From contig JAKOSS010000714.1 of the NCBI GenBank assembly GCA_029777145.1, forward strand, positions 1-14,941: 14,941 nucleotides of DNA, read 5' to 3'. Below, piece after piece: positions 77-14,941 of this stretch (the first letter of the stretch is position 1; the number at the start of each line of letters is the position of its first letter). The notes below the pieces were generated by a model that saw only the letters and a list, made by a program, of their open reading frames with translations, was not told where the DNA came from and searched no databases. This DNA comes from Acidobacteriota bacterium. GTDB taxonomy: Bacteria; Acidobacteriota; Blastocatellia; Pyrinomonadales; Pyrinomonadaceae. The translations under genes and the position numbers were made by a program.

Positions 77-1141
77 ATGATTTCGGATCGAGCCAGAAAG
101 ATCGCCGACGCCGTCCTTTACGAAGGTTACATCCTCTATCCGTACCGGAAATCCGCGATCAAGAACCGCCACCGGTTCAACTTCGGGCTCGTCGAGCCGG
201 GCGCGGAATTCAAGACAGAAGTTATCGCCCGCGGGTCGGATTTCGGGGTCACCTTTCGCTTCCTCCAGCTACAACAAAGACAAATCGTCGACGGGTTCGG
301 AAGACAGGTTGAACGGCTCGAGACCGCTGACGGCATTTTTGAATCATGGGACGAGGCGGTCGACCACGAAGTCGTCGAAGGCGCGTTCAACTTCCCTGCG
401 GATGTTTCTACTGAAGACCTTCCGACCGGCGCGCGTTACGAGCGAAGTACCGAAGATTGCGCCGGTTCGGTGAGCGTCGTTCATGAGAGGATCGATGACG
501 CGCTGACGAAGTTCTCGGTGACGATCCGCAACGAAGGTCCGGCGACGCTGATCTCCGCACACGCCGTGATGACGATCGACTCCGGCGAGTTCCTCTCGTT
601 GCTGGAATATCCGCCCGAACTTCAGTCCGAGATCGCATCGCTCGAAAACAAGGGGTTGTTTCCCGTACTGGTCGACAAACGGACGATGCTCGCGTCGCCG
701 ATCATCATGTACGACTTTCCGGCGGTCGCGGACGAAAGCGCCGGAGACTTTTACGATCTGACGGAGATCGACGAACTGCTCGCGCTCCGCGTCCAGACGA
801 TGACGGATGCCGAAAAGAACGAGGCGCGGAATCTCGACCCGCGGGCGGCACGCGTCATCGACGCCGCCGAGCGGATTGATCTCGATGCGTTGCACGGAAC
901 CTACCGATCGACGGATCTGCCGCCCGGAACGCGTGTCCGGCTGCATCCGAAGAAGAACGCCGACGCTTTTGACGTGTTCCTCGACGGACGGATCGCGGTC
1001 GTCGAACGAGAAGAGATCGACCTCGAAGGCCGCCGGTGTTATTCGGTGATCCTTGAGGACGAAACCGAGATCGTCGCCGCGCTTGGGAAGAACGTCGGCC
1101 ACCGGTTCTTTTTCGAAGCTGGCGAGTTGGAAAGGATCTAA
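77..1141 (+). CDS. Conserved hydrogenase-cluster protein of unknown function
   Basis: This is a soluble 354-residue protein with no signal peptide or membrane segment. The N-terminus has a LYPYR motif (about residues 20-24) followed by KNRHRFNFG (29-37). The C-terminal part has a charged stretch around FDVFLDGRIAVVEREEIDLEG. I recognise this combination from conserved hypothetical proteins encoded in [NiFe]-hydrogenase gene clusters of actinobacteria and other aerobic soil bacteria; this is recall, not a search result. The next gene on the same strand is a hydrogenase maturation protease, which supports a role in hydrogenase assembly or in an auxiliary subunit. The hydrogenase structural genes would be expected upstream, outside the window. 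The ATG at 77 is chosen because the N-terminus matches the family; a heptad repeat array replaces a normal RBS. The molecular function is unknown. Confidence 0.8.
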   Translation: MISDRARKIADAVLYEGYILYPYRKSAIKNRHRFNFGLVEPGAEFKTEVIARGSDFGVTFRFLQLQQRQIVDGFGRQVERLETADGIFESWDEAVDHEVVEGAFNFPADVSTEDLPTGARYERSTEDCAGSVSVVHERIDDALTKFSVTIRNEGPATLISAHAVMTIDSGEFLSLLEYPPELQSEIASLENKGLFPVLVDKRTMLASPIIMYDFPAVADESAGDFYDLTEIDELLALRVQTMTDAEKNEARNLDPRAARVIDAAERIDLDALHGTYRSTDLPPGTRVRLHPKKNADAFDVFLDGRIAVVEREEIDLEGRRCYSVILEDETEIVAALGKNVGHRFFFEAGELERI

Positions 1142-1226: not shown

Positions 1227-1697
1227 GTGAAAAGAGTATTGATAGCAGGAATCGGAAACGTGTTTCACGGCGACGATGCATTCGGGTGCGAGGTCGTCAA
1301 ACTCCTACAAGCGCGCGATCTTCCCGATGACGTCGAGGTCCGCGATTTCGGGATCCGCGGATTCGATCTCGCCTTTTCGATCGCGCAACCGTACGATTTG
1401 GTGATCCTCGTCGACTGCATCCGCGCCGGCGCCGCACCGGGAACGCTGATCGTTATGGAACCGAAGATCGGACGCGCCGCGACCGTTGAGTCGCACTCGC
1501 CGACACCCGTCTCGGCGCTTGAATTGGCCGCGCAGTTCCCCGAAAAGGCCGACCGCGTCGTCATCGTCGGATGCGAACCGGAAAACACCGAATTCGGGGA
1601 CGAAATGAGCGACGCGGTCCGGCAAGCTGTTGAGAAAGCGTTGACGACCGTATTCCGGCTCATGAAAGATCAGCCGTCGCCATCAGAAAGCAGATGA
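1227..1697 (+). CDS. [NiFe]-hydrogenase maturation endopeptidase (HyaD/HybD/HycI family)
   Basis: This is a 156-residue peptidase of family M52, which cleaves the C-terminal peptide from the hydrogenase large subunit after nickel insertion. The family signature GIGNVFHGDDAFG is at residues 8-20. By alignment with E. coli HybD, the nickel-sensing ligands Glu16, Asp62 and His93 correspond to Asp17, Asp63 (LVDCI) and His90 (ESHSPTP). An Asp at the first site in place of Glu is a conservative change. DFGIRGFDL (40-48) matches the conserved D-G-x-x-G region and IVGCEPE (113-119) the C-terminal strand. The start is GTG: the overlapping ATG at 1225 reads straight into a stop. No clear SD is present; the heptad array lies just upstream. 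The large subunit it serves is not in the window. Confidence 0.93.
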   Translation: MKRVLIAGIGNVFHGDDAFGCEVVKLLQARDLPDDVEVRDFGIRGFDLAFSIAQPYDLVILVDCIRAGAAPGTLIVMEPKIGRAATVESHSPTPVSALELAAQFPEKADRVVIVGCEPENTEFGDEMSDAVRQAVEKALTTVFRLMKDQPSPSESR

Positions 1698-1717
1698 GAA
1701 CGGTCACGGCCGTCTCT
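1697..1717. terminator. Possible shared terminator hairpin between convergent genes
   Basis: The arms AGAACGG (1697-1703) and CCGT-c-TCT (1710-1717) can pair over 7 bp with one bulged C, leaving a 6-base loop. The hairpin overlaps the stop codons of both convergent genes and is followed on the plus strand by a T-rich stretch (ATTTCTT). The stem is short and the T-tract is interrupted, so this is only a candidate. Confidence 0.3.
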
Positions 1718-3737
1718 ATTTCTTGCCCTTTCTCAGCAACCGGCGAACCGTAAGCCGCGTGGTAAATTTTGCCTCACTCACCTTGTTCCGCGTCGAAACC
1801 GCCAGACGCACGCCCCGATTTTCTTTGACGCCCTTATCGACTGAGCCCGGCGGGCCGGGTGCAGTCACGGTGTTTTCCTCGATCGCTGTCGCAGGATCCG
1901 CCGGCGACATCACTTCGACCAAAAGGCTCGTATCGTCGGGTTCGAAGAGGAACGTGTTCGCCGTCAACCTTTTGATCTCTTTGTCAGAATGGAAAAATGC
2001 CGTGATCGTCTCAGGTCGTTGAGTTTCGATCAGATCGGTTACCAGAAACGTTCCCGGCGCGGTGAACTCGAACGTCCGCTCGAATTTTCTGACGCCGAGT
2101 TCAGGCTCGTACGCGGCGGTCAGATCGGCGACGACCGATACGCCTTTTGAGGTCAGCTTCACCGCGGAAAGTCGTATTTCGTTGAGGCGTTCGTACGGAA
2201 TGTCCACCCAGACGTCGTGACCTTTCCCTTCCCTGTTCTGGCCCTTGCCGTCAAACACGACGGTGTTGTGGTGTTCAGTCAACGGCACGCCGGCGTAACC
2301 TGAATCTCCCGTCAGATACTTTCCGTTCGCCCAAATTATGAAACTTCCGGCATCCGGATGCGCGTGACCGCTCGAGAGCCGCCATTCGGGGAAATTTCGA
2401 AGCCCCTCGAGAGCAGACTTCCCTTCCGGCGGACCGGCTTTGAATGAAAATGCGGTCGCGTCGTCAGCCCAACCGGATCGCCAGAAGACGACTTCGTGAT
2501 CCTGAAAATAATGAAAAGTCGGCTGGTTATTGATCGGCACCGCTCGAATCGACGGATCGTACCAAATAAATGTCCAATACTCCTCCGCGTTTACCTGATT
2601 CTTCGATTTGAGCCAGTTCGCGATCCCCTGAGACTCACCGCTGTTGTAGCGCGAGGCGAGGTGATAAAGGATGTTGTAGTTCGTTCGAAACCTTCCATCG
2701 ATGCGTTCCCGTTCGTAATCATCTCCGGAACGCGAACGCGTGATCGGACCGGCATAAATATCGCCGTAATCGAAATTGAATTCCCCGCCCGGCAGCGTCG
2801 AATGGGCAACATAGGTCGCCGCGCTCTTGAGGCCCGGAGTCGTCTGGTAAAGGTCTTCTCCGGTTGAATGGAGATGGGCGTCGAGATAATGGATTATCCA
2901 CGGCGTCGAGAAGATCCAGTACTCCATTCCCTCGTAGTAGTATCCGTCCTTTGAGTAGGTCGCGAGGACACGATCAAAAATCGCGCGCGACAATGCCGCC
3001 CAGTCCTTTGCGTCGTCGGCCTCGCCCATCAAAGCATATGCCGTAACCGCCAGTCCCGAGATCGGAATGAACGTATGGTTCTGTGAGTAGGCGTAGGTTT
3101 TGCCGCGACGCGGCTTGAAAAACTCGTACATCAAGCGGGCCTGAACTGTCAGTTTCGCGCGGTATTTGTCGCGTTCCGCTTGGGTCAGATCGTGGTAAAG
3201 AAGATCGTACGCCCATCCCATGCCGTAGAGAAGATGTCCCGCTGCGAGATCGACGTTCGGCTTGTTGTTGGAGTATCCCCAGATCTCATACGAGACCGCC
3301 GCATCCATGTATTTCTTCGCGGCGACGAGATATTTCTTGTCGCCGGTCATCTTGTAAATGAATGCGGCTTCGGCAATTCCCAGTCCGACCTCATTTTGCG
3401 CGCGACGAGTCTCGGCGGGCGGCGGCGGCGGCTCGACCGACAATGCCCTGACCCTCCTGATCGCGGTCTGCCACAGGGTATCCTGCACCTTGGCCTTTGC
3501 TTTGAGTGCGTCGATCTCGGCTTGCGTTACGAAAACCCGCGGATGCACGCCTTCGAGTTCAGGCTTCAGCGCCGACGGCTTCGATCTCATGACCGCGACC
3601 AGCGGGTGTTCGCCTTTCAGCTTGTCACTTTTTTCATTTTCCTTCTCAAGTTCACGACTGTCCTGACCAAAGGATGGGAGTCCGGCGACGCCGATCAAAA
3701 GCAGGACAAAAACGACAACGAGCTTCAGTTTGCGCAT
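1716..3737 (-). CDS. Secreted heparinase II/III-type polysaccharide lyase
   Basis: A predicted 673-residue exported lyase. The signal peptide MRKLKLVVVFVLLLIGVAG-LPSFGQ comes first, then an N-terminal alpha/alpha-toroid starting with HPRVFVTQAEIDAL, typical of the heparinase II / oligoalginate lyase superfamily (PL15/PL17/PL21-like). Likely catalytic residues are His221 in SQNHTFIP, a Tyr in DGYYYEGMEYW (266-273) and His458 in SGHAHPDAGSF. Likely metal ligands are His460, Asp478 (TGDSGY) and a His in EHHNT (489-490), arranged as in Pedobacter heparinase II. The C-terminal half would be the beta-sandwich of that fold. These enzymes beta-eliminate uronic-acid-containing glycans to 4,5-unsaturated sugars. 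Start at 3737 was chosen to place the signal peptide at the N-terminus; ATG 3746 is also possible. The gene lies 17 bp after the SDR gene, as last gene of that set. The exact substrate (alginate, glucuronan or a GAG) cannot be read from sequence. Confidence 0.88.
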   Translation of the reverse strand: MRKLKLVVVFVLLLIGVAGLPSFGQDSRELEKENEKSDKLKGEHPLVAVMRSKPSALKPELEGVHPRVFVTQAEIDALKAKAKVQDTLWQTAIRRVRALSVEPPPPPAETRRAQNEVGLGIAEAAFIYKMTGDKKYLVAAKKYMDAAVSYEIWGYSNNKPNVDLAAGHLLYGMGWAYDLLYHDLTQAERDKYRAKLTVQARLMYEFFKPRRGKTYAYSQNHTFIPISGLAVTAYALMGEADDAKDWAALSRAIFDRVLATYSKDGYYYEGMEYWIFSTPWIIHYLDAHLHSTGEDLYQTTPGLKSAATYVAHSTLPGGEFNFDYGDIYAGPITRSRSGDDYERERIDGRFRTNYNILYHLASRYNSGESQGIANWLKSKNQVNAEEYWTFIWYDPSIRAVPINNQPTFHYFQDHEVVFWRSGWADDATAFSFKAGPPEGKSALEGLRNFPEWRLSSGHAHPDAGSFIIWANGKYLTGDSGYAGVPLTEHHNTVVFDGKGQNREGKGHDVWVDIPYERLNEIRLSAVKLTSKGVSVVADLTAAYEPELGVRKFERTFEFTAPGTFLVTDLIETQRPETITAFFHSDKEIKRLTANTFLFEPDDTSLLVEVMSPADPATAIEENTVTAPGPPGSVDKGVKENRGVRLAVSTRNKVSEAKFTTRLTVRRLLRKGKK

Positions 3738-3754
3738 GATTTCCATTTCCCGAA

Positions 3755-4531
3755 TCAGTCCATCAAAAGTCCGCCGTTGATCTCGATCGTCTCGCCGCAA
3801 AGATAACTCGCCGCATCGGATGCGAGAAAGGCGATCACGCTCGCGACCTCGGAAGGACTTCCTTCGCGGCCCATCGGAATCGCCTTGCGTAGGTTCTGCA
3901 TCACTTCGGACGTCGTGAATGTTTCATGATATGGCGTGTCGATGACGCCCGGTGAAACCGCGTTGACGCGGATCCCCTGCGCGGCAAATTCCTTAGCGAG
4001 CCCCTTCGTCATCGTCAGCATCGCCGCCTTCGCCGACGAGTAATGGATCGAACCGAGCGCTCCGCCGTTCCGCGCGGCGATCGAAGTGACGTTGACGATC
4101 ACCCCTTTGCCTTTCTCGAGCATCTTTGGAATTACGGCTTTGGCGGCGAAGAATCCGCTGGTCGCATTCAGATTCATCACTTCATTCCAGCGCGACTCGG
4201 TAAGCTCAAGCGTTCGGAGCCGTTCGACCAGCGAACCCGCGTTGTTGACGAGGATATCGACCGGACCAAGCTTCGCTTCGACTTCCCGCACCATGGTCTC
4301 GATCGCGCCGTCCTCTGTGACGTCGACCTGTAATGCGATCGCCCGTGCCCCGGAAACGCCGAATGCCGAGATCGCCGCGACCGCTTGTTCGGCGCCGGCA
4401 CCGTTCTTGTGATACGTCAGGCCGACCGAAGCTCCGAGCTTTCCGAAGAGTTCGGCTGTTGCCCGGCCGATCCCGCTCGAGGCGCCGGTGACGAGAACCA
4501 CCTTTCCCGTAAAATCAAAAAAGTCTTCCAT
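3755..4531 (-). CDS. SDR-family oxidoreductase, probable DEH (unsaturated uronate) reductase
   Basis: A classical short-chain dehydrogenase/reductase of 258 residues. The cofactor loop TGASSGIG is at 15-22, NNAG at 96-99, and the catalytic tetrad is Asn122 (LNATSG), Ser150, Tyr164 and Lys168 (YSSAK). The end CGETIEINGGLLMD is the usual SDR dimer region. Most annotation pipelines would call it FabG-like. Here it sits 5 bp downstream of a hexuronate-type transporter and 17 bp upstream of a lyase, and a KdgF-like cupin is in the same locus. I therefore infer reduction of 4-deoxy-L-erythro-5-hexoseulose uronate (DEH) to 2-keto-3-deoxygluconate, as done by the A1-R-type reductases of alginate degraders. 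The alternative is a KduD-like 2-keto-3-deoxygluconate dehydrogenase, but its partner KduI is not present. The best SD-like stretch (AAGGAG) lies inside the end of the transporter gene, about 14 bases from the ATG, suggesting translational coupling. Confidence 0.85.
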   Translation of the reverse strand: MEDFFDFTGKVVLVTGASSGIGRATAELFGKLGASVGLTYHKNGAGAEQAVAAISAFGVSGARAIALQVDVTEDGAIETMVREVEAKLGPVDILVNNAGSLVERLRTLELTESRWNEVMNLNATSGFFAAKAVIPKMLEKGKGVIVNVTSIAARNGGALGSIHYSSAKAAMLTMTKGLAKEFAAQGIRVNAVSPGVIDTPYHETFTTSEVMQNLRKAIPMGREGSPSEVASVIAFLASDAASYLCGETIEINGGLLMD

Positions 4532-4536
4532 TTTGT

Positions 4537-5880
4537 TTATGCATTCTCCTTCAGTTCATTGAGTGAAACCCTCTCGATCCGACCCGTCAGCCAAAACAGG
4601 ATCACCGTTCCAACCGGTGCAAGAATTCCCGCGGTGACGAGAATCGGAGTGTACGAAAAATTGTCAACGACCCAACCGGTCGTAAAAATGAAGATCATCG
4701 AACCGATGCCGGCACCCGTTCCGCCGAGTCCGGCGACCGATCCTACGGCCTCCGCCGGGAAAAAGTCGCTCGGCAGGGTCTGAACGTTGTTGATCCAGAC
4801 CTGAAACCCGAAAAGCACCGTGCCGATCAATGCCAGGGCGGCGATCGCGTCCGGCGTGAAGGCCGCGATTATCCCGGCCGGCATCAACAGCGCCGCGAAA
4901 GCGATGACAACTTTGCGGGCCGCGTTCACCGACCAACCGCGACCGATCAGGAAGCCTGAGAGCCAGCCTCCAAAGAGACTGCCGGCATCGGCGGCAACAT
5001 AAGGCACCCACGCGAACAGCCCGATCTGTTTCAGGTCGAAGCCGTGGACCCGGCTCAGATAAAGCGGCAGCCACGTGATATAGAGCCACCAAACCGGATC
5101 GACCAGGAACCGCGCGATCACGATCGCCCACGTCTTCCGCAACCGCAGGAGTTGGAACCAGCCGATCGTCTCGGGGCGGGATGTCGATCGGCTCTCGGCC
5201 GCATCGGCCGTCCCTTCGCCTTCCCGAATTACCACAAGTTCGTTCTTTGTCAGCCACTTGTGGTTTTCAGGCCGATCGTAAGTTATCAACCAAGCGACCA
5301 GCCAGACGAAACCCAAGAGTCCCGTCACGACAAACACTTCCTGCCAGTGTCCGAAGTACGTATATAGCCCAACGATGATCGGTGGTGCGACGATCGATCC
5401 GATCGCCGCTCCGCTGTTGAAGATCGCCATGCCCAAGGCACGCTGTCGTGCGGGGAACCACGTGGCGACCGTCTTCGCCGCTCCGGGCCAGTTGCCTGCC
5501 TCGCCGAGGCCGAGCAGAAATCGAAAGGCGCTGAGGCTCTTGATCCCGACCGAAAAGGCATGTGCCATGGCGGCGACGGACCACACGACGATCGATGCCG
5601 TAAACCCCTTCTTGATGCCGACGCGGTCGTACAGCTTGCCTGAAAGGCTTTGGCTGATCGTATATGCCAGCAAAAACCAGGTGGCGATACCTCCGAATTC
5701 GGTGTTGGTCAAATTCAGGTCCGTGGTTATGACCGGTGCAAGCACCGAAATCGTCAAGCGGTCGATATAATTGATCAGCGTTGCGAAAAAGATCAGACCA
5801 ACGATCAGCCAGCGAAGGCCGCGGAGCTTGAATCCACCGTCGGTGCCGCGATCCTCAAGCGTCAAATTGGGTTCTTGCAT
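4537..5880 (-). CDS. MFS hexuronate-type transporter (ACS family, ExuT-like)
   Basis: A 447-residue inner-membrane carrier of the anion:cation symporter family of MFS proteins, which includes ExuT (hexuronates) and GudP (glucarate). About 12 hydrophobic segments are visible. The first-helix motif NYIDRLTISVLAP (37-49) and RFLLGLGEAGNWPGA (120-134) are characteristic of this family. A hydrophilic central loop lies at about 200-245. The probable cargo is a monomeric uronate, most likely the unsaturated sugar made by the locus lyases, because the cupin and reductase that would act next lack signal peptides and are cytoplasmic. A good SD (AGGA within GCAGGAAACC) precedes the ATG. It is the first of three closely packed genes (5 bp to the SDR) and lies 85 bp after the LacI-family regulator gene on the same strand. 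No convincing promoter was seen in that 85-bp gap. Confidence 0.92.
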   Translation of the reverse strand: MQEPNLTLEDRGTDGGFKLRGLRWLIVGLIFFATLINYIDRLTISVLAPVITTDLNLTNTEFGGIATWFLLAYTISQSLSGKLYDRVGIKKGFTASIVVWSVAAMAHAFSVGIKSLSAFRFLLGLGEAGNWPGAAKTVATWFPARQRALGMAIFNSGAAIGSIVAPPIIVGLYTYFGHWQEVFVVTGLLGFVWLVAWLITYDRPENHKWLTKNELVVIREGEGTADAAESRSTSRPETIGWFQLLRLRKTWAIVIARFLVDPVWWLYITWLPLYLSRVHGFDLKQIGLFAWVPYVAADAGSLFGGWLSGFLIGRGWSVNAARKVVIAFAALLMPAGIIAAFTPDAIAALALIGTVLFGFQVWINNVQTLPSDFFPAEAVGSVAGLGGTGAGIGSMIFIFTTGWVVDNFSYTPILVTAGILAPVGTVILFWLTGRIERVSLNELKENA

Positions 5881-5965: not shown

Positions 5966-7042
5966 TCAGGCGATTTGCGATCCCGACGACTCGCGTCTCA
6001 CCAATTCGCAGTTCAAGGTCCGTTCACGCCGGTTGATGTCTTCTTCGCTTTGGATCCGTTCGAGGAGCAATTCCGCGGCGATTGCCCCTTCGAGCGCCAT
6101 CGGCTGCCGAACCGTCGTCAATGACGGCGACATACGGGCCGCCATCGGAATGTCGTCGAAACCGACGATGGCGATCTCATCCGGGATATTGAGCCGGGCA
6201 TCCTTGATCGCGCGCATTGCACCGATGGCGGTAAAGTCGTTTCGGGCGAACACCGCCGTCGGCGGGTCGGCCAGCGAAAGCAACCGGTTCATGCTCTCGA
6301 AACCGATCTCTTCCGTGGAGTAGCCCGAAATTCCCACATCTTCGTTTTCGTGTCCGACGACGAGCCGCTCGTCGAGCGGGATCGAAAAATGAGCGTGCGC
6401 GTCACGATACCCGCGCAGTCGTTTCAAATTTGCACCGGATCGCAGGTTCGCTCCGATGAACGCGATTCTTCGGTGCCCGAGATCGATCAGATGCCGTGTC
6501 GCTTCAAAACCTCCGGTCAGGCTGTCGGCCGAAACCAGATCAACGTTCGGATGCCGGAAATCCCGTCCGATCACGACGACCGGGAGACCGCTGTCCGCGA
6601 TTCGTTCCAGATATCGGTCGCCGCTCCGGCTTGACCGTGTCGCGACGATGACGCCGTCGACATTGTGATTTGTCAGTGCTTCGAAGGCGACGACGTCTTC
6701 GGTCTCACTCTGCTCGCTGATGCATATGAAAAGATTGAACCCCCGATCCAAAAGTGTTGCGCGGACCGATCGTGCGAGTTCCGTCGAGTAAGGATTCGAA
6801 ATATCGCCCAGGACGAGACCAACGGTTTCGGTACATTGGCGTTTCAAGCTTCGAGCCAGACCGTTTCGGCGATAATTGAGATCCTTGACCGCCTGCATCA
6901 CCTTTCGGCGCGTTTCGTCGCTGACATATCCGCCGCCGTTGATAACCCGGGAGACGGTCATCGCGGTGACGCCTACCGCCGCCGCGATGTCGTTGAGAGT
7001 GACCTGCCGTTTGCCCGGCTTTCTTACTCGTGAACGGTTCAT
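5966..7042 (-). CDS. LacI-family transcriptional regulator
   Basis: A 358-residue LacI/GalR repressor. The N-terminal helix-turn-helix VTLNDIAAAVGVTAMTVSRV (14-33) is followed by a hinge region (NGLARSLKR, 60-68) and a periplasmic-binding-like sensor domain from about residue 73 (GLVLGDISNPYSTELAR) to the C-terminus (IVGFDDIPMAARMSPSLTTVRQP, typical of the family). It lies at the head of the transporter-SDR-lyase set, so the effector is probably a uronate or a catabolic intermediate such as KDG; this is inferred from context. A perfect CG-centred palindrome lies 9 bases before the start codon, directly after a sigma70-like -10 box, so the gene is probably autoregulated. No Shine-Dalgarno is apparent, and the predicted 5' leader is only about 14 bases. 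Confidence 0.93.
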   Translation of the reverse strand: MNRSRVRKPGKRQVTLNDIAAAVGVTAMTVSRVINGGGYVSDETRRKVMQAVKDLNYRRNGLARSLKRQCTETVGLVLGDISNPYSTELARSVRATLLDRGFNLFICISEQSETEDVVAFEALTNHNVDGVIVATRSSRSGDRYLERIADSGLPVVVIGRDFRHPNVDLVSADSLTGGFEATRHLIDLGHRRIAFIGANLRSGANLKRLRGYRDAHAHFSIPLDERLVVGHENEDVGISGYSTEEIGFESMNRLLSLADPPTAVFARNDFTAIGAMRAIKDARLNIPDEIAIVGFDDIPMAARMSPSLTTVRQPMALEGAIAAELLLERIQSEEDINRRERTLNCELVRRESSGSQIA

Positions 7043-7423: not shown

Positions 7424-8650
7424 ATGCGCAAAATCGATCCCAATGATTTCAAGGTTGCGACCCGCGGCACTTCGCGCGAGATCAACCGCCAGATCGCGTT
7501 GACGCTGATCCGGACACATCAGCCGGTATCGCGCGCGGAACTGGCGCGGCTGATGGAGACCAACCGGGCGAACGTCACGCTCCTTGTCAATGAGCTGCTG
7601 ACCGAGGGTCTCGTGCGCGAAGGCGACCTTGGGGATGGAAAGGCCCGCGGCCGCAAGCCGACGTCACTCTATGTGAATTCCGACCGCGGCGTCGCGATCG
7701 CGCTCGATGTCAGGGCTTCGAGGACGTACATGATGCTGACCGATTCGATCGGACAGCAGATCGGCGAGATCATCAGTTTTCCGACAATGTTCGAACCGCG
7801 TGAATTTGTCGCCAATTTGGGCCGACATGCACGGAAGGCCGTTCTTGAGGTTTCCGGACAATCGACGTTTGACGGGATCGGGATCATCATCCCCGGAATG
7901 GTCGACCGGAAATCGGGGACGGTGATCAACGCGCCCGCCCTTGGCTGGAAACATGTCAAGCTCGGCGAGCTGCTCGAAAAGGAGTTCGAAGGTTCCGAAG
8001 TTCACCTCGAGAATTCAGGCAAGGCCTGCGCGCTGTCGCAGATATGGTCGGTTCGCAGCGACCTCCGCGGAAACAATGACATTGTCTTTGTCAGCGTGTC
8101 CGACGGTCTCGGCGTCGGGATCGTCATCAACGGCGAGGTCTTGCGGGGCAAGCACAATACGGCAGGCGAGTTCGGCCACGTCCCGCTCAGCATCGACGGC
8201 CCGAAATGCGCTTGCGGTGCGACAGGCTGTCTCGAAGCCTACATTTCGAACCCGGCCACTCTTTCAAGGTACTTGGGCAGAAACGTAGCGCGCCGGCAGC
8301 CGCGGGCGGTCGACGAGGCGGATTTCACGGTCGAGGATCTGATCGCGATCGCTCGGAAAAACGACGGGCGGGCGATCACGGCGCTCATTTCGACGGCGCG
8401 GTACCTGGGGATGGGACTGGCTTCGATCGTAAATGCGATCGACCCGACGGTGATCTATATCGGCGGCGAGATCACGGATGCCTGGGATCTGATCGAGGTG
8501 CACGTCCGCGAGGCCTTGCGCGAACGGGCGCTGACGAATGATCTCGCCGATGTCCAGATTCGAATCGTACCGGCGTCCGAGCATCCGCGGCTTCGCGGAG
8601 CCGTCGCCCTGATCACGGCCCCGGCGTTCGCCGCGCCGAAGGTGGCCTAG
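7424..8650 (+). CDS. ROK-family transcriptional regulator (NagC/Mlc/XylR type)
   Basis: A 408-residue protein. The N-terminal winged helix-turn-helix spans about 18-85 (REINRQIALTLIRTHQPVSR then ELARLMETNRANVTLLVNEL). The ROK domain follows, with DVRASRTYMML, GIGIIIPGMVDRKSG and SDGLGVGIVING. The structural zinc site is intact: His252 (EFGHV) and Cys262, Cys264, Cys269 (CACGATGC). In ROK sugar kinases the catalytic Asp lies in an ENDAN-like motif; here the segment is ENSGK (196-200) with Ser198 in its place, so kinase activity is unlikely and the protein should be a sugar-responsive repressor. It is divergent from the LacI-family gene and directly upstream of the TonB-dependent receptor, its likely target. 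No SD is visible before the ATG; the palindrome at 7401-7421 occupies that position. An alternative downstream start would cut into the HTH region and is disfavoured. Confidence 0.92.
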   Translation: MRKIDPNDFKVATRGTSREINRQIALTLIRTHQPVSRAELARLMETNRANVTLLVNELLTEGLVREGDLGDGKARGRKPTSLYVNSDRGVAIALDVRASRTYMMLTDSIGQQIGEIISFPTMFEPREFVANLGRHARKAVLEVSGQSTFDGIGIIIPGMVDRKSGTVINAPALGWKHVKLGELLEKEFEGSEVHLENSGKACALSQIWSVRSDLRGNNDIVFVSVSDGLGVGIVINGEVLRGKHNTAGEFGHVPLSIDGPKCACGATGCLEAYISNPATLSRYLGRNVARRQPRAVDEADFTVEDLIAIARKNDGRAITALISTARYLGMGLASIVNAIDPTVIYIGGEITDAWDLIEVHVREALRERALTNDLADVQIRIVPASEHPRLRGAVALITAPAFAAPKVA

Positions 8651-8750: not shown

Positions 8751-11700
8751 ATGAATCAGCTAAACGGATTTCCACGATTGTCGACGGCTGGCACCGGTTT
8801 TCGTTGGACCGGGATACCGTTACTTCTTCTGGCGCTCTTAGCCATTCCTATTGCGGTGAGCGCGCAGATCACCAGCGCAACCATCGTCGGAACGGTTTCC
8901 GACGCGAGCGGCGCGGCGGTACCGGCGGCATCGGTAACTGCCCGCAACACCCAAACCGGTCTTACGCGTACCGTTAATTCCGACGGCGACGGCAACTACC
9001 GGATCGAGTTTCTCCCGATCGGTCAGTATGTCGTCGAAGTCGCCGCGACAACCGGGTTCAAGAAAGCGATCCGCGAGGCGATCTCCCTGAGCGTCGGGGA
9101 TGTGGCGCGCGTCGATGTCAGCCTTGAGGCCGGCTCGGTGAGCGAACAGGTGACGATCACGAGCGACGCACCGGAGGTCAATACGAGCACCGCCGAACTG
9201 GGCAGAACCATTCAGACCCAGGAGATCGAGAATCTTCCATTAGTTGAGCGCAACGTTTTCACCCTGCTTGATCTGACCCCCGGCGTCCAATCAAACAACG
9301 CCGGAGTCGCGACCGCTTCGGCATCGACGAGCAATCTCAGCTTGGGGTTTCCGGAACAAAGGACGCTGATCAACGGCGGCACCGACGGCGGCACGGGATC
9401 GGTCAATTATTATCTGGACGGCGGTCTGAACATGACGAATCTCCGGAATACCGGAAACATCGCGCCGAATCCGGATGCGATCCAGGAGTTCAGGGTCCAG
9501 ACGAACAGTTACAACGCCGAATACGGAAGATTCGCGAGCGGTATCATCAATATCCTTACGAAATCAGGCACGAACACCTTCCACGGTTCGCTTTATGAAT
9601 TCGTCCGCAACGACGCATTCAACGCCAATGAATGGGGATCGGTCGTTGAAAAGGCTCCGTACCGCCGTAACCAGTTCGGCGGAACTTTCGGTGGTCCCAT
9701 CAAGAATGACCGCACGTTCTTCTTTGCTTCCTACTCAGGACTGCGACAAACCACGAGCACGTTTCTGAACGGCGCCCGGGTCCCGACCGCGCTCGAACGC
9801 ATCGGCGACTTTTCGGCGTCGCCGGGCAGCGGTCCGCGGGATCCGGTGACGGGGGCCACATTCACGTGCAACGGCGTTTCGCGGGTCATTTGCCCGAACC
9901 GGATCAATCCGGTTGCGGCGAGGATCATCAACGACTACATTCCGCTGTCGAATGTCACCCTCAGCAACGGACTCCCGGGGTGGCAGGGGAATGTCGCGAA
10001 TCCATACAACACCGACGAATTTCTGGCGAAGTTCGATCATCAGTTGACCACGGCTCATCGCCTTACTGCGTCGTATTTCACCACCGCGGGGAGCACGACG
10101 GTGTTTCCGGGGAGCGGCAACCTGCCGTGGGCGACGCAAAAGTTCAAATGGCGGCAGCACAACGTGAACCTGAGCGACGTCTGGATCATCGGCCCGGACA
10201 AGATCAACCAGTTTTGGCTGACGTACAGCCGCAATTTCGGCGGACGACTGAACCAACCGGCAACTTCCCTCGCCGATCTCGGTTCGGCCTTTACGCCGCA
10301 GGGTGCGCCGTCGTTGCCGCAAATAACGGTCACAGGTTATTTCACGCTTTCGAATGCGATCGGCGGACCGCGCGCCGGAACCGACATGTACTCGATGCGG
10401 AACGTGTTCAGTTGGATCAAGGGATCCCATTCCCTGAAGATCGGCGGCGAAGTCTCGCTCAACAAGGACATCCAGGAAACGCTGCTCAATAATTACGGCG
10501 TCTTCTCGTTCAGTTCGTCAGGAGCGACGAACAACGCACTCGCGAACTTCCTGATTGGACTTCCGACCGGTTTGACCCAGGACGCGCCCGTCACGGCTTA
10601 CACGAATACGTGGTACACGGCGCTCTTCGTGCAGGACGACTTCCGCGTCAGTTCCCGCCTGACGCTCAATCTGGGCCTTCGGTGGGATGTTCAGACGCCC
10701 CCGACCGATCCTGAGAATCGGGTCGTGAACTATGTTCCGGGACAACGCTCGACCGTCAACCCGATCGCGCCGGTCGGAGCTCTGTTCTACGGCGATCCCG
10801 GCGTCGAAAGAGGCGGAATCCCGGTCGCGTACGACCACTTCTCTCCGCGATTCGGACTTGCCTGGGATCCGTTCGGTGACGGCAAGACTTCGATCCGCGC
10901 CGCCGCGGGGATCTTCTACGGGAGCATTTCCGGGAACGAATGGAACACCATGACGAACTTTCAGCCGTTCTCGACGCGGCTGAACTTCAGCGGCATCAAC
11001 CTGGCGACGTCCTCCAACGGCTGGACCGGCGCCTCGTTGAGCAATCCGTACCTGAACTTCCCGGGCGGCAATCCGTTTCCTTATCAGGGAACGTTCACCA
11101 CCGGCGGCGGACTCTTCGCCGTCGCGCAGGACTTCGCGTGGCCGCGGACGTTCCAGACGAACGTGTCCATTCAGCGGGAGATCTTCAAGGATCTCACGGT
11201 CGGCGCGGCGTATGTCGGAACGCTGGCCAGCAGGCTGCCTTTCGGTCGTGATGTCAATTATCCGGTCCTGACGCCGACGGCGACGACCGGCAACATCAAC
11301 GCGCGGCGTCCGAATACCGCGTTTGGCGCGGTTCTCGTACTCGATTCCGATCAGGACGCTTCGTACCACGGCATGCAGCTCACGACCGTTTGGCGAATGG
11401 GCAAAATGCTGAATCTAAATGCCTTCTACGTTCTCAGCAAGACGTTAAGCAGCGCGCAGCTTCACAACAACACGACTCAGGGGCTCGCGCAGAACTACAG
11501 CCGGCTCGATCTCGAGAGCGGACGCGCAGATACGGATCAACGTCACGTTTTCAGCCTGAGCATGAACTTCCGGCCTGATCTCTACAGAGGCAAGAACAAA
11601 GTTGCGAAGGCGATCATCAACGGCTGGAGCCTTTCGCCGATCGTCAAAGTGCGCAGCGGCCGGCCGTTCACGGTCACCAACGGAAACGTCGACGCGAATC

Positions 11701-12083
11701 TCGACGGCAATACGAATGACCGTGCCCAATTGATCGGCGATCCGCGGATCAGCAATCCGTCGCCGGCGATGTGGTTCAATACGGCCGCCTTTACGCGCAA
11801 CGCGATTGTCACCGGGGTGGCGACCGACGGCAACTCGGCCCGTAACTTGCTGACCGGCCCGGGATACAGGGTAGTTGATCTCGCTCTTTCGCGTGATTTT
11901 CGGTTCGGGGAACGCATCAAACTCCGATTCCGCGCCGAGGGAACGAATATCTTCAACCTCGTGAACTACGATCAGCCGAATGCCAGCGCACCGGCTCCCG
12001 GCACGACGTCATCAACGTTCGGCACCATTTCGGGCGCGTCGGCAATGAGGCGGTTGCAGTTCGGATTCCGTCTGACCTTCTGA
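8751..12083 (+). CDS. TonB-dependent outer-membrane receptor with carboxypeptidase-regulatory-like domain (Oar-like)
   Basis: A 1110-residue outer-membrane protein. An N-terminal signal peptide ends near Ala38 (AVSAQ). A carboxypeptidase regulatory-like beta-sandwich domain follows (about 40-125, GTVSDASGAAVPAASVTARN...GNYRIEFLPIGQYVVEV), then a plug domain (about 130-280, including IENLPLVERNVFTLLDLTPGV) and a long C-terminal beta-barrel ending in RLTF. The terminal Phe fits the outer-membrane insertion signal. This architecture is that of the Oar-like receptors abundant in Acidobacteriota, which work without an obvious SusD partner; none is encoded here. The likely role is energy-dependent uptake of oligosaccharides, inferred from the adjoining lyases. 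It has the strongest RBS in the window (AAGGAG at 8739-8744, six bases before the ATG). It probably has its own promoter or shares that of the ROK gene; a hairpin after the ROK stop may reduce read-through. Confidence 0.93.
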   Translation: MNQLNGFPRLSTAGTGFRWTGIPLLLLALLAIPIAVSAQITSATIVGTVSDASGAAVPAASVTARNTQTGLTRTVNSDGDGNYRIEFLPIGQYVVEVAATTGFKKAIREAISLSVGDVARVDVSLEAGSVSEQVTITSDAPEVNTSTAELGRTIQTQEIENLPLVERNVFTLLDLTPGVQSNNAGVATASASTSNLSLGFPEQRTLINGGTDGGTGSVNYYLDGGLNMTNLRNTGNIAPNPDAIQEFRVQTNSYNAEYGRFASGIINILTKSGTNTFHGSLYEFVRNDAFNANEWGSVVEKAPYRRNQFGGTFGGPIKNDRTFFFASYSGLRQTTSTFLNGARVPTALERIGDFSASPGSGPRDPVTGATFTCNGVSRVICPNRINPVAARIINDYIPLSNVTLSNGLPGWQGNVANPYNTDEFLAKFDHQLTTAHRLTASYFTTAGSTTVFPGSGNLPWATQKFKWRQHNVNLSDVWIIGPDKINQFWLTYSRNFGGRLNQPATSLADLGSAFTPQGAPSLPQITVTGYFTLSNAIGGPRAGTDMYSMRNVFSWIKGSHSLKIGGEVSLNKDIQETLLNNYGVFSFSSSGATNNALANFLIGLPTGLTQDAPVTAYTNTWYTALFVQDDFRVSSRLTLNLGLRWDVQTPPTDPENRVVNYVPGQRSTVNPIAPVGALFYGDPGVERGGIPVAYDHFSPRFGLAWDPFGDGKTSIRAAAGIFYGSISGNEWNTMTNFQPFSTRLNFSGINLATSSNGWTGASLSNPYLNFPGGNPFPYQGTFTTGGGLFAVAQDFAWPRTFQTNVSIQREIFKDLTVGAAYVGTLASRLPFGRDVNYPVLTPTATTGNINARRPNTAFGAVLVLDSDQDASYHGMQLTTVWRMGKMLNLNAFYVLSKTLSSAQLHNNTTQGLAQNYSRLDLESGRADTDQRHVFSLSMNFRPDLYRGKNKVAKAIINGWSLSPIVKVRSGRPFTVTNGNVDANLDGNTNDRAQLIGDPRISNPSPAMWFNTAAFTRNAIVTGVATDGNSARNLLTGPGYRVVDLALSRDFRFGERIKLRFRAEGTNIFNLVNYDQPNASAPAPGTTSSTFGTISGASAMRRLQFGFRLTF

Positions 12084-12329: not shown

Positions 12330-12375
12330 GCGATTATTTTTATCACGTCATCTGGGTTTGATGATCGGAGAACTG

Positions 12376-14274
12376 ATGATCAGGACAAAGCGAACCGGAA
12401 TCGCCGGGTTTCTATCGGCCATCGTTTTGATCGGAATCGTCTGCGGGCTGATTCCCTCCACGGCGTCGGCACAAAACCAAATCGTTGTAAATGGTGTTTT
12501 GGCAAAGACGCTCCACGCCGAGATCGACGGTTTCCTCGCCAAAGAGATCGCAAGCCACTTCGCGAACATCAAATCGCTCGACCCGCCGCCCGAACGAGTC
12601 TTCGGCGCGCTGACGGTCGGCGAATTCTCGTGGGGAAGTTTTGCGAGAGCGCTCGCGGCGCAGGCCGATCTGGGCGGAAACCGGATGATCGCAGGCAAGA
12701 ATACGGCGCGGGCGATCGCCGAAATGGGACTGATCGAATCGCGGCAAGGCGGGAAGGCATTCGCTCAGCTGTATTCGATTCTTGCGCTTCGGCATTTCGG
12801 GACCGATCTCTCAAAGAACGCCGTTTGGTTGAGCATGAGCGAGTCCGAGCGGAAAGAGTGGCACTCGCTGCTCGACCCCGCCCGGTTCTACGATCCGCAG
12901 AAAAGGGCCGTCATCAATCTTCCGGAGAATTATCTCGGCGTCGCCGCCCGCGTCGCCGCGATGAGCTGGCAATTGGGCGTTCTCAAGGACCGCGCGTTCC
13001 TTGATTCCGTCGTCGAGCGCGCGGCGCAGCAGTTCACTGAAGGTGCGATCTATTCTGACGACAATCCTCCGACCGGGCGATACGACCGCTATTCGAACGA
13101 GTACGCGCGCTATTGCTGGGACGCGGCCGACATCGCGGGACGCGGCGACATCAAAGACAAGCTGCGCGCGTCGATCAAAACCCAGATGCGGCTCTGGTAC
13201 GATCTCGTCTCACCTGCCGGTTACGGATACAACTGGGGACGCAGCCAGGGATTGGTGAGCTATCTGGACACCCTCGAGATCGCTGCGTTCTTGGCGCAAA
13301 ATCCTGAATTCAGCCCGGCGCCGCTGACCGAGATCGCGGCACTTTTCAATCAGGCGTGGCGATGGATCCGCGCGGACTACGACGACGCGACCCACATGTT
13401 CACGGTCTTCGCCTTCGGGCGCGGCAACTACTCGTACATCAACCGCAACCGTGAGTGGCAGCAGACCGGAACCGGATTCGGCAAAATAGTATTGGCCAAT
13501 TCGACCTTCTTCAAGGCGCTCGAGAAAGAGCGTGTCGATTCGTTTCCGGCGAGCCCGACGCTGCCGGACGTCGCCCGGTTCGAGTACTTCTCCCAAAACA
13601 ATAACCTTCGCGAAGGCGTCTGGCTCGTACGCCAGGGGAAACTGCACTTTGCATTGCCGATCACGGTCGGAACGAAACCGGCGATCTCCGATTACCTTCC
13701 GGCTCCGTTCGGATTATCGGGATTTTCCGCTCCGGTCGAAGAGGTTTATCCGTCATTCGTCCCGTTCTTGACGCTCGGTGACGGCAGCGTATATGCGGCC
13801 GCCGACGGTTCCGATCTTATTCGTCCGGCGGATGACGCCCGTTCGCTGGAGATCACGAACGACAAATGGGCGCGCATCAACAGCAAATCGGGCGAACGAT
13901 TCGACAACGGACTGCGGAGCGTCGTGAATTTCTCGATCGAACGCGGCAAGTTCATCCGCCGCGAAACGGTCACCGCCCGGCGCGACGTCGTGATACGCGC
14001 TTGGAAGTTCGTCTTTCCTTCGACCGCGTCGGCGGCGTCGCAGATATTCCGCGACGGAACCACCGAATTTCAACTGGATGGCCGCGATGGCCGCACGTTG
14101 GTCGCCATCAAACTGCCGTTTCCGTCGTCGATCCGCATTCTGGCGACCGGAGACGACAAACTCGGCAAGGGCGTGCTCGGCCCGATTCCGATCCACATCG
14201 TCGCCGAAGCGGAAGAAACTCGCCTGTCCGCCGGGCAAACATTCACCTGGGAAATCAGCGTTGAGCCTAAATAG
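12376..14274 (+). CDS. Secreted protein of unrecognised family; candidate alpha/alpha-toroid polysaccharide lyase
   Basis: I do not recognise the family. The protein has 632 residues with a signal peptide ending at STASA-Q (about residue 32). The N-terminal half (about 45-385) looks mainly helical, with repeated aromatic-rich motifs resembling helical-toroid carbohydrate enzymes: NLPENYLGVAARVA (181-194), YDRYSNEYARYCWDAAD (236-252), YGYNWGRSQGLVSYLDT (283-299) and NYSYINRNREW (351-361). The C-terminal half (about 400-632) looks beta-rich, as in lyases with a toroid followed by a beta-sandwich. The start at 12376 is chosen because GGAG (12367-12370) lies five bases upstream and the signal peptide then begins the protein; the longer TTG start at 12268 would bury it. 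The KdgF-like cupin gene follows after 4 bp, then an alginate-lyase-family gene. Context therefore suggests a lyase or other enzyme acting on uronate polymers. No catalytic residues can be assigned with confidence. Confidence 0.8.
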   Translation: MIRTKRTGIAGFLSAIVLIGIVCGLIPSTASAQNQIVVNGVLAKTLHAEIDGFLAKEIASHFANIKSLDPPPERVFGALTVGEFSWGSFARALAAQADLGGNRMIAGKNTARAIAEMGLIESRQGGKAFAQLYSILALRHFGTDLSKNAVWLSMSESERKEWHSLLDPARFYDPQKRAVINLPENYLGVAARVAAMSWQLGVLKDRAFLDSVVERAAQQFTEGAIYSDDNPPTGRYDRYSNEYARYCWDAADIAGRGDIKDKLRASIKTQMRLWYDLVSPAGYGYNWGRSQGLVSYLDTLEIAAFLAQNPEFSPAPLTEIAALFNQAWRWIRADYDDATHMFTVFAFGRGNYSYINRNREWQQTGTGFGKIVLANSTFFKALEKERVDSFPASPTLPDVARFEYFSQNNNLREGVWLVRQGKLHFALPITVGTKPAISDYLPAPFGLSGFSAPVEEVYPSFVPFLTLGDGSVYAAADGSDLIRPADDARSLEITNDKWARINSKSGERFDNGLRSVVNFSIERGKFIRRETVTARRDVVIRAWKFVFPSTASAASQIFRDGTTEFQLDGRDGRTLVAIKLPFPSSIRILATGDDKLGKGVLGPIPIHIVAEAEETRLSAGQTFTWEISVEPK

Positions 14275-14278
14275 ACCG

Positions 14279-14632
14279 ATGATCAGCGAAAAGATTGAAA
14301 CAACCGCACTTGTAACCGACTGGTCGTCAGTGAAGACCGAGTCTCCCGCGCCAGGCATCACGCGGCAGATGATCGTCGGGCAGAATGTGATGATGGTCCG
14401 GTTCACGTTCGAACCGTTCCTCGTGACGGAGGAACACACGCATCCCCACGAACAGATGACGATCGTCGTGAAAGGGCGCGTCAAATTCATTATCAGCGGC
14501 GAAGAGCGCATGGTTTCGGCGGGCGATGTGCTCCATTTCCCCCCGCACAACCGTCACGGCGCGACCATGCTTGATGAGGAAGTCGTGCTGATCGACATCT
14601 TCTCGCCGATCCGTGAGGACTTTCTGGCCTGA
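14279..14632 (+). CDS. kdgF: KdgF-like cupin, unsaturated uronate ring-opening enzyme
   Basis: A small single-domain cupin of 117 residues without a signal peptide, so cytoplasmic. The metal-site motif HTHPHEQ (53-59) supplies His53, His55 and Gln59, and His93 (PHNRHGA) is the second-motif ligand. This H-x-H-P-H-E-Q arrangement is characteristic of KdgF, which converts 4,5-unsaturated monouronates from pectin or alginate into linear ketonized sugars (DKI or DEH). This is the step between the lyases and the SDR reductase of the locus. ATG 14279 is four bases after the preceding stop, indicating operon coupling; a longer reading frame running back to 14078 overlaps the upstream gene and is not real. 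No clear SD is present, consistent with coupling. The gene symbol is assigned by motif and context; other small cupins share the fold. Confidence 0.82.
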   Translation: MISEKIETTALVTDWSSVKTESPAPGITRQMIVGQNVMMVRFTFEPFLVTEEHTHPHEQMTIVVKGRVKFIISGEERMVSAGDVLHFPPHNRHGATMLDEEVVLIDIFSPIREDFLA

Positions 14633-14642
14633 CGAAACCCGT

Positions 14643-14941
14643 ATGAACAGCAATCTCTTGGCGAAATCGCGTCTGTTGGCTTTCATCGTCGCAATCTATT
14701 GCGCCGTCGCATCGATCGCCGGCGCGCAGTCTTTGCCGCGCGTCTTCATTCTCGATGCCCGGGAACTGCTCACGGCCAAGCAGCGGCTCGCCGATCCTTC
14801 ACTGAAGGATCCGGCTTTGAAAGCGTCGCTGAGGAATATTGAGAAGAACGCGAAATCCGCCCTCGCGGCCGAGTATGCGTCGGTTGTCACCAAATCCGTC
14901 GCGCCGCCGAACGGCGACAAGCACGACTACATGAGCCAGGC
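14643..14941 (+). CDS. Alginate lyase family protein (PF05426-like), N-terminal part only
   Basis: The first 99 codons of a gene that continues past the window end. A signal peptide (about residues 1-28, ending AGA-Q) is followed by LPRVFILDARELLTAKQRLA and, after a helical segment, VAPPNGDKHDYMSQ (87-99). This P-P-x-G-D-K-H-D-Y-M-S motif is typical of the N-terminal part of the alginate lyase family PF05426 (the PL5-like helical toroid, also part of PL17). The enzyme would be secreted or periplasmic and beta-eliminate mannuronate/guluronate polymers or act on another glycan. ATG 14643 lies 10 bp after the cupin stop, so it belongs to the same transcription unit. Catalytic residues lie beyond the window, so activity and PL family cannot be judged. 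Confidence 0.85.
   Translation, partial: MNSNLLAKSRLLAFIVAIYCAVASIAGAQSLPRVFILDARELLTAKQRLADPSLKDPALKASLRNIEKNAKSALAAEYASVVTKSVAPPNGDKHDYMSQ

Follow-up and report, generated by a model that had tools for sequence, protein, structure and literature searches.

Among polysaccharide lyases, the catalytic Asn and Tyr residues of families PL35 and PL12 lie 54 residues apart (PMC12088678) and those of PL33 one residue closer (PMC11848413); as described in the accessible parts of these two reports, all three families also use a His residue of the beta-domain, and PL35 enzymes a nearby metal site. An exolytic PL17 enzyme is encoded between SusC and KdgF in a Bacteroides polysaccharide utilisation locus, and the substrates of KdgF are unsaturated monouronates, according to the accessible text of PMC11381880. 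Two members of GH154 have been reported as uronate dehydratases, and for BcGDH (PDB 9o4u and 9nwf) a beta-D-glucuronate dehydratase activity is described, by which ends are primed for GH88 (PMC12269599, in its accessible part). Here we describe a 632-residue protein encoded at 12376-14274 (+) in a 14,941-nucleotide stretch of Acidobacteriota DNA (contig JAKOSS010000714.1, hereafter the window). Its predicted fold, invariant residues and gene context suggest that it is quite probably a secreted uronate beta-eliminase from a family not described before.

An unnamed family with a predicted alpha-toroid fold

The 632-residue protein has no match in Pfam at E ≤ 1 or E ≤ 10, none in PHROGs and none among PDB sequences at E ≤ 10, whether searched as a single sequence or as a profile, and only two chance-like lactate dehydrogenase matches in NCBIfam, in agreement with the initial annotation, which recognised no family. 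The frame starts with ATG, five bases downstream of a GGAG (12367-12370), and was judged to be a real gene. A chance open reading frame (ORF) is indeed argued against by the homologues: of 7997 candidates scored, 2646 reached E ≤ 1e-3, and a second query from the family, of Vicinamibacteria origin, gave 2818 of 7995. For each of these two queries 120 homologues were listed; none of the 240 carries a Pfam domain, most are without an organism name, and those that are named come from Pyrinomonadaceae, Vicinamibacteria or Vicinamibacterales, that is, from Acidobacteriota. Scanning species genomes with two peptide patterns yielded 32 loci (given L numbers below), all in Acidobacteriota records except L030, recorded only as 'bacterium'. 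One of the homologues, L018, is that of Pyrinomonas methylaliphatogenes K22. In an even phylum sample scanned at a threshold of 1e-6, with up to three candidates scored per genome, the family was present in 10 of 396 genomes with one match each, and, since even the weakest of these had an E value of 2.5e-277, it seems to be sharply bounded. Identity to the window protein across the aligned sets is about 46-74%, and no publication on the family was found in the open literature. By these sequence comparisons, it is a real, large and undescribed family.

The AlphaFold2 model of the protein, with a predicted local distance difference test score (pLDDT) of 90.9, consists of an alpha-toroid joined to a beta-sandwich. 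Its best full-length fold matches in the PDB are lyases of families PL35, PL33, PL8, PL12, PL15, PL21 and PL17 together with dermatan-sulfate epimerase, so that the helical N-terminal half, the beta-rich C-terminal half and the toroid-plus-sandwich layout expected in the initial annotation are all borne out at the level of prediction. A hydrophobic stretch followed by ASA, read by eye, marks a probable signal peptide and the start of a linker (residues 1-34, ending STASA-QN; 12376-12477 (+)), overlapping a segment with pLDDT below 50 (residues 26-37), and the protein therefore looks to be secreted, either to the periplasm or to the cell surface. The alpha/alpha toroid spans approximately residues 40-386 (12493-13533 (+)) as delimited by the modelled helices, with toroid matches covering residues 39-407, and the beta-sandwich approximately residues 389-632 (13540-14271 (+)), with modelled strands at 389-631 and full-length lyase matches extending to residue 632. 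A lyase-type body is thus predicted, around a GH154-type core if the weak sequence trace described below is true. As the toroid occurs in the lyases as well as in GH154 enzymes, the fold cannot tell a lyase from a GH154 dehydratase.

The PL35 glycosaminoglycan lyases GAGase II and VII (8khv and 8khw) and the PL33 enzyme 8r72 provide the best full-length matches. Toroid lyases pair a neutralising Asn with a Tyr about 53-57 residues further on and carry an antiparallel beta-sheet domain; such a domain is present in the predicted model, and Asn185 (motif ENY, codon at 12928-12930 (+)) and Tyr239 (motif DRYS, 13090-13092 (+)) are 54 residues apart, comparable with the 53-54 of PL35 and PL33. Sequence similarity between the protein and these enzymes was not found, and the catalytic residues given for PL35 and PL33 in the accessible parts of PMC12088678 and PMC11848413 do not include its WGRS Arg. 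The exolytic oligo-alginate lyases of PL17 and PL15 share the toroid-plus-sandwich layout; unlike them, the protein again has no sequence similarity that could be found, and no His is conserved in its family where one would be expected. PL8, the family of hyaluronate, chondroitin AC and xanthan lyases, is represented among the full-length matches by 1n7o, 2e22 and 1cb8, the first two of which we take to be PL8 members. In PL8 enzymes, as in the 632-residue protein, an Asn is followed by a Tyr and then by a GR motif. In contrast, a hidden Markov model (HMM) built from two Acidobacteriota PL8 sequences gave at most 0.9 bits on the family (reversed controls, 1.2), in which the helical-domain His of PL8 has no conserved counterpart.

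Conserved residues and the trace to GH154

Residue conservation was counted in 262 homologues (257 distinct), comprising 235 of the 240 listed proteins and 27 of the 32 loci, after 10 of 272 sequences had been dropped as too short. Invariant in all of them are Asn185, Asp228, Asp229, Arg235, Asp237, Arg238, Tyr239, Ser240, Glu242, Tyr243, Arg245, Tyr283, Tyr285, Arg289, Tyr296, Asp298, Glu301, Arg349, Tyr354, Glu360, Gln362, Gln363 and Tyr440. Six of the seven residues that the initial annotation had proposed to line a substrate cleft are in this list, and at the seventh, Tyr186, Phe replaces Tyr in 2 sequences, the other 260 having Tyr. Given how closely related the family is throughout, this invariance is only a mild argument. 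Tyr283 and Tyr285 flank Gly284 in the motif GYGYxWGRS (13222-13230 (+)), which also contains Arg289 (13240-13242 (+)).

When 51 diverse members were compared with the full set of 24,736 Pfam families at E ≤ 10, DUF2264 (PF10022) matched the largest number, 10 of 51 with a best E value of 0.0014, the window protein not being among the ten. The remaining matches were Harakiri (5 of 51, best E 0.032), WGR (3 of 51, 0.032) and seven further families, each matched by a single member. When ten members were scanned singly, six matched DUF2264, within residues 133-291 of the proteins and 113-255 of the profile, at 13.2-18.2 bits, and the matched stretch includes the Asn, DxY and GRS motifs. The 25-bit cut-off of PF10022 was passed by none, the best score (18.2 bits) belonging to L024. 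DUF2264 includes GH154, as a member matched the GH154 structures 8oi4, 9o4u and 9nwf.

An HMM of our own, built from 120 DUF2264 proteins, placed the three motifs in the same register in 181 of the 262 homologues, mostly at scores near zero (all matches, median -0.3 bits, top 11.6; reversed sequences, median -5.7, top -0.1). HMMs of heparinase-like, GH88, PF05426 and PL8 proteins reached at most 2.6 bits on the family, a comparison of unequal power since these were built from 2 to 10 sequences; moreover, the DUF2264 model was chosen after the motifs had been noticed, a selection bias from which the 51-member scan is free. Matches near E 1e-3 that recur in related sequences are not proof of kinship, because Harakiri, WGR and an NCBIfam L-lactate dehydrogenase family also match (the last with 9 of the 51, at a best E of 0.0039, and over residues 194-236 in the window protein). 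Kinship with L-lactate dehydrogenase, presumably a TIM barrel as opposed to the predicted toroid, was rejected and the match taken as chance. The DUF2264 match is set apart from these by covering 109-148 residues, by including the catalytic residues and by the common toroid, and true kinship of the family with GH154 appears moderately probable from these sequence scans.

The trace invites an alternative, namely that the protein is a GH154-like uronate dehydratase, which would take water (O4) off a saturated uronate at the non-reducing end and leave a 4,5-unsaturated end for hydrolysis by GH88 or GH105. In BcGDH, the Ala mutants of Glu74, Arg78, Asn176, Asn177, Trp178, Phe181, Tyr229, Arg285, Tyr289 and Tyr354 were inactive, as assayed with chondrosine, a poor substrate according to the authors (PMC12269599, accessible part). 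The GRS motif of the 9nwf sequence contains Arg285, DNYN contains Tyr229 and NNW contains Asn177; the HMM alignments, which are weak and are not structure superpositions, place Asn185 on Asn177, Tyr239 on Tyr229 and Arg289 on Arg285, as this alternative would expect. Against it, the acid Tyr289 of BcGDH, four residues after the Arg, is Tyr in 120 of 120 DUF2264 proteins and in none of the 262 family members, where the position is Leu (132), Val (122), Ile (4), Ala (2), Met (1) or Phe (1). Before the Arg, at positions -6 and -4, where the 632-residue protein has Tyr283 and Tyr285, DUF2264 has mostly Gly and Ile/Val. By the same HMM register the Phe181 position is Val in all 262, and Glu74 has no clear counterpart by eye in the 632-residue protein. 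BcGDH is also said to lack a second domain, in contrast to the two modelled here, though DUF2264 has two-domain members such as BT_3677.

Genes around the family in the window and in other loci

A KdgF-like cupin gene of 117 residues (14279-14632 (+); Cupin_2, E 1.2e-13) begins 4 bases past the stop of the 632-residue protein gene; its product matches the KdgF chain 5fq0 at E 1.6e-13, with the cupins 7zyb and 4e2g scoring better. It is followed 10 bases later by a PL38-like gene of the alginate lyase family (14643-14941 (+)), cut by the contig end after 99 residues, whose product shares 40% identity over 94 residues with a protein of L007 from the PF05426 cluster. A different protein of this cluster, assigned to PF05426 by scanning, matched 8bdq at E 9.9e-64 and the 'alginate lyase' 3nfv at E 1.3e-90, the PL38 label of 8bdq being that of PMC12088678 (accessible part). 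Upstream, a TonB-dependent receptor (8751-12083 (+)), so labelled by reading its sequence and belonging to a BLAST cluster found in 24 of the 32 loci, ends 292 bases before the 632-residue protein gene, and a ROK-family regulator (7424-8650 (+); PF00480, E 9.7e-48) precedes it. The operon of the initial annotation thus stands as regards its cupin and alginate-lyase-family neighbours; because the receptor and regulator lie upstream on the same strand, the 632-residue protein gene may not be the first of its transcript.

The divergent operon encodes a heparinase II/III-like lyase (1716-3740 (-); DUF4962 and Hepar_II_III_C by Pfam scan), which among PDB sequences is most similar to human dermatan-sulfate epimerase (E 1e-19) and less so to PL15 and PL35, with PL39 also near. 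It further encodes a short-chain dehydrogenase/reductase (SDR; 3755-4531 (-); PF13561, E 2.2e-62), possibly a 4-deoxy-uronate (DEH/KduD-type) reductase, an MFS transporter nearest to galactonate transporters (4537-5880 (-); TIGR00893 at 280 bits, under its cut-off of 395) and, by Pfam scan, a LacI-family regulator (5966-7042 (-)). Beside the uronate locus lie a 354-residue protein without a Pfam family over cut-off (77-1141 (+)) and, after it, a hydrogenase maturation protease (1227-1697 (+); HycI, E 7e-16).

Genes in the 32 loci were called crudely as longest ORFs, with cluster labels taken from one or two scanned members each, and the neighbours in L007 and L028 are unreliable because antisense frames were called over the family gene. 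The recurrent neighbours are the TonB receptor (24), KdgF-like cupin (21), KduI (17), SDR (15), ROK (14), MFS (11), GH88/105 (10), heparinase-like (10), PF05426 (8), GH3 (5), LarA-like (4), DUF4861 (4) and GH28 (3). In 20 of 29 loci the start of the cupin gene lies no more than 1.2 kb downstream of the family gene and on its strand. On a family tree of 28 rows, PL38-type neighbours occur in 8 rows (the window counted via its cut-off gene), pectin-type neighbours (GH28 or DUF4861, the latter presumably a marker of pectin loci) in 6 and neither in 14; each type can be placed as a single change, the two being split by fully supported branches. One branch is accompanied by alginate- or glucuronan-like genes and the other by genes of the pectin type; the cupin and the receptor are found repeatedly on either branch. 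The earlier proposal that the protein shares its polyuronate with the known lyases of the window thus proves too narrow. The idea that the family protein is the only eliminase of pectin-type loci was also rejected, as L017 holds PL10 (PF09492), GH28 and GH88. That status stands only for L020 (10 kb upstream and 2.2 kb downstream, 8 of 10 neighbours scanned, all except a TonB receptor and a 193-residue minus-strand ORF), whose genome has GH88 elsewhere.

Several further genes were observed in these genomes. A LarA-like gene of 432-464 residues lies beside uronate genes in L010 (14472-15770 (-)), L011 (12498-13805 (-)), L013 (3481-4875 (-)) and L022 (11981-13297 (-)); the one product scanned has a lactate racemase N-terminal domain and is perhaps a nickel-pincer sugar-acid epimerase. 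In the pectin-type clade a protein of 860-970 residues adjoins KduI (L019, 3687-6269; L021, 2992-5901; L022, 134-2755; L025, 3040-5631), and the one scanned carries DUF4861 at residues 40-389, the rest being without a Pfam match at E ≤ 0.01. Very long, similar ORFs follow the family gene in L024 (12966-19118, 2050 residues) and L028 (13027-17961, 1644 residues), near which no uronate genes were called. L017 also encodes a 654-residue protein (17100-19064 (+)) with GH88 at residues 57-406 followed by a DUF4350 match under cut-off, and open frames of 630-680 residues around GH88 occur in many carrier genomes.

Proposed reaction and alternative explanations

From the predicted fold, the invariant residues and the observed gene order, we infer the following course for the reaction. 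A uronosyl residue would bind in the cleft between the toroid and the beta-sandwich, where Asn185, helped by Arg289, would neutralise its carboxylate. Tyr239, held deprotonated by Arg289, may then remove the C5 proton, and a second Tyr, either Tyr283 or Tyr285 or another invariant one such as Tyr296 or Tyr354, may protonate O4, so that the O4 group leaves and a 4,5-unsaturated uronate is formed. If the leaving group is usually a sugar, the enzyme would be an exolytic oligo-uronide lyase, and the unsaturated monomer could be opened by the adjacent KdgF and subsequently handled by KduI and the SDR reductase. Because KdgF acts on unsaturated monouronates, a step that yields them is expected at these loci, and the 632-residue protein is placed between receptor and KdgF-like cupin as is the exolytic PL17 in the Bacteroides locus (PMC11381880, accessible part).

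Several observations weigh against a lyase. No lyase family was matched by the 51 members in the Pfam scan, although HMMER filters drop most weak matches, and the sole carbohydrate-enzyme family leaving a trace there, DUF2264/GH154, points to dehydratases, two of its members being reported as such. The beta-domain His or HxHxD-type metal site of toroid lyases was not seen, as judged from sequence: HxHxD occurs in 1 of 262 family members compared with 10 of 10 heparinase-like neighbours, and past residue 390 the only columns with more than 10% His are 407 (31 of 262), 445 (138) and 607 (258). Other lyases are present in many loci, and elimination there need not rest on the family protein. GH88/105, the partner a dehydratase would need, is over cut-off in 26 of 31 carrier genomes compared with 22 of 119 genomes in a sample of the phylum that includes some carriers. 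In profile-profile comparisons, hhalign found no significant similarity to the heparinase-like, PF05426, DUF2264 and other families of the local neighbourhood; for DUF2264 a cropped alignment reached 19.8, close to the reversed profile (19.7) and within 59 column shuffles (mean 16.4, maximum 23.4); kinship with GH154 thus rests on the HMM scans.

On balance, the analysis leans towards a lyase, given the loss of the GH154 acid Tyr, the PL17-like gene position and four carrier genomes (G082/L021, G007/L023, G008/L025 and G418/L031) that have no GH88/105 match at all and in which genes for a KdgF-like cupin, an SDR and a heparinase-like lyase lie next to the family gene, absent genes in draft genomes being weak evidence. 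An exolytic oligo-uronide lyase feeding KdgF therefore has, in our estimate, about an even chance of being the correct description and is more likely than the dehydratase, which we consider unlikely. The initial annotation as a polysaccharide lyase is accordingly upheld in fold, residues and uronate context, the lyase label itself being left unsettled by the lack of a Pfam lyase family, the DUF2264/GH154 trace and the scarcity of HxHxD. A toroid enzyme using the same cleft for another reaction, either a glycoside hydrolase or a uronosyl C5-epimerase like the dermatan-sulfate epimerase found among the fold matches, is less likely still. A non-catalytic or quite different periplasmic protein, such as a glycan-binding partner of the TonB receptor, would suit a gene that follows the receptor as SusD follows SusC, in a window where none of the ten proteins scanned matched a SusD family. 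It is very improbable in view of the large number of Asn, Tyr, Arg, Asp and Glu positions that are invariant, a predicted fold matching enzymes and three residues aligned with a catalytic set.

Returning to the eliminase reading, we tentatively put forward a bolder form of it, with somewhat less than even confidence: a new family of carbohydrate-active enzymes, largely of Acidobacteriota, in which the GH154 Asn-Tyr-Arg core is set in a two-domain toroid-lyase body, with the donor Tyr moved from Arg+4 to Arg-4 or Arg-6 and no beta-domain HxHxD. Such a family would show an eliminase scaffold switching between the expulsion of water and of sugar. If the GH154 kinship is true, it would link dehydratases with polysaccharide lyases and help to settle the classification of GH154. 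The family also offers biochemists a ready mutational map, and, should the eliminase reading prove true, thousands of proteins, 'hypothetical' where named, would gain a function in the breakdown of uronate polymers in Acidobacteriota.
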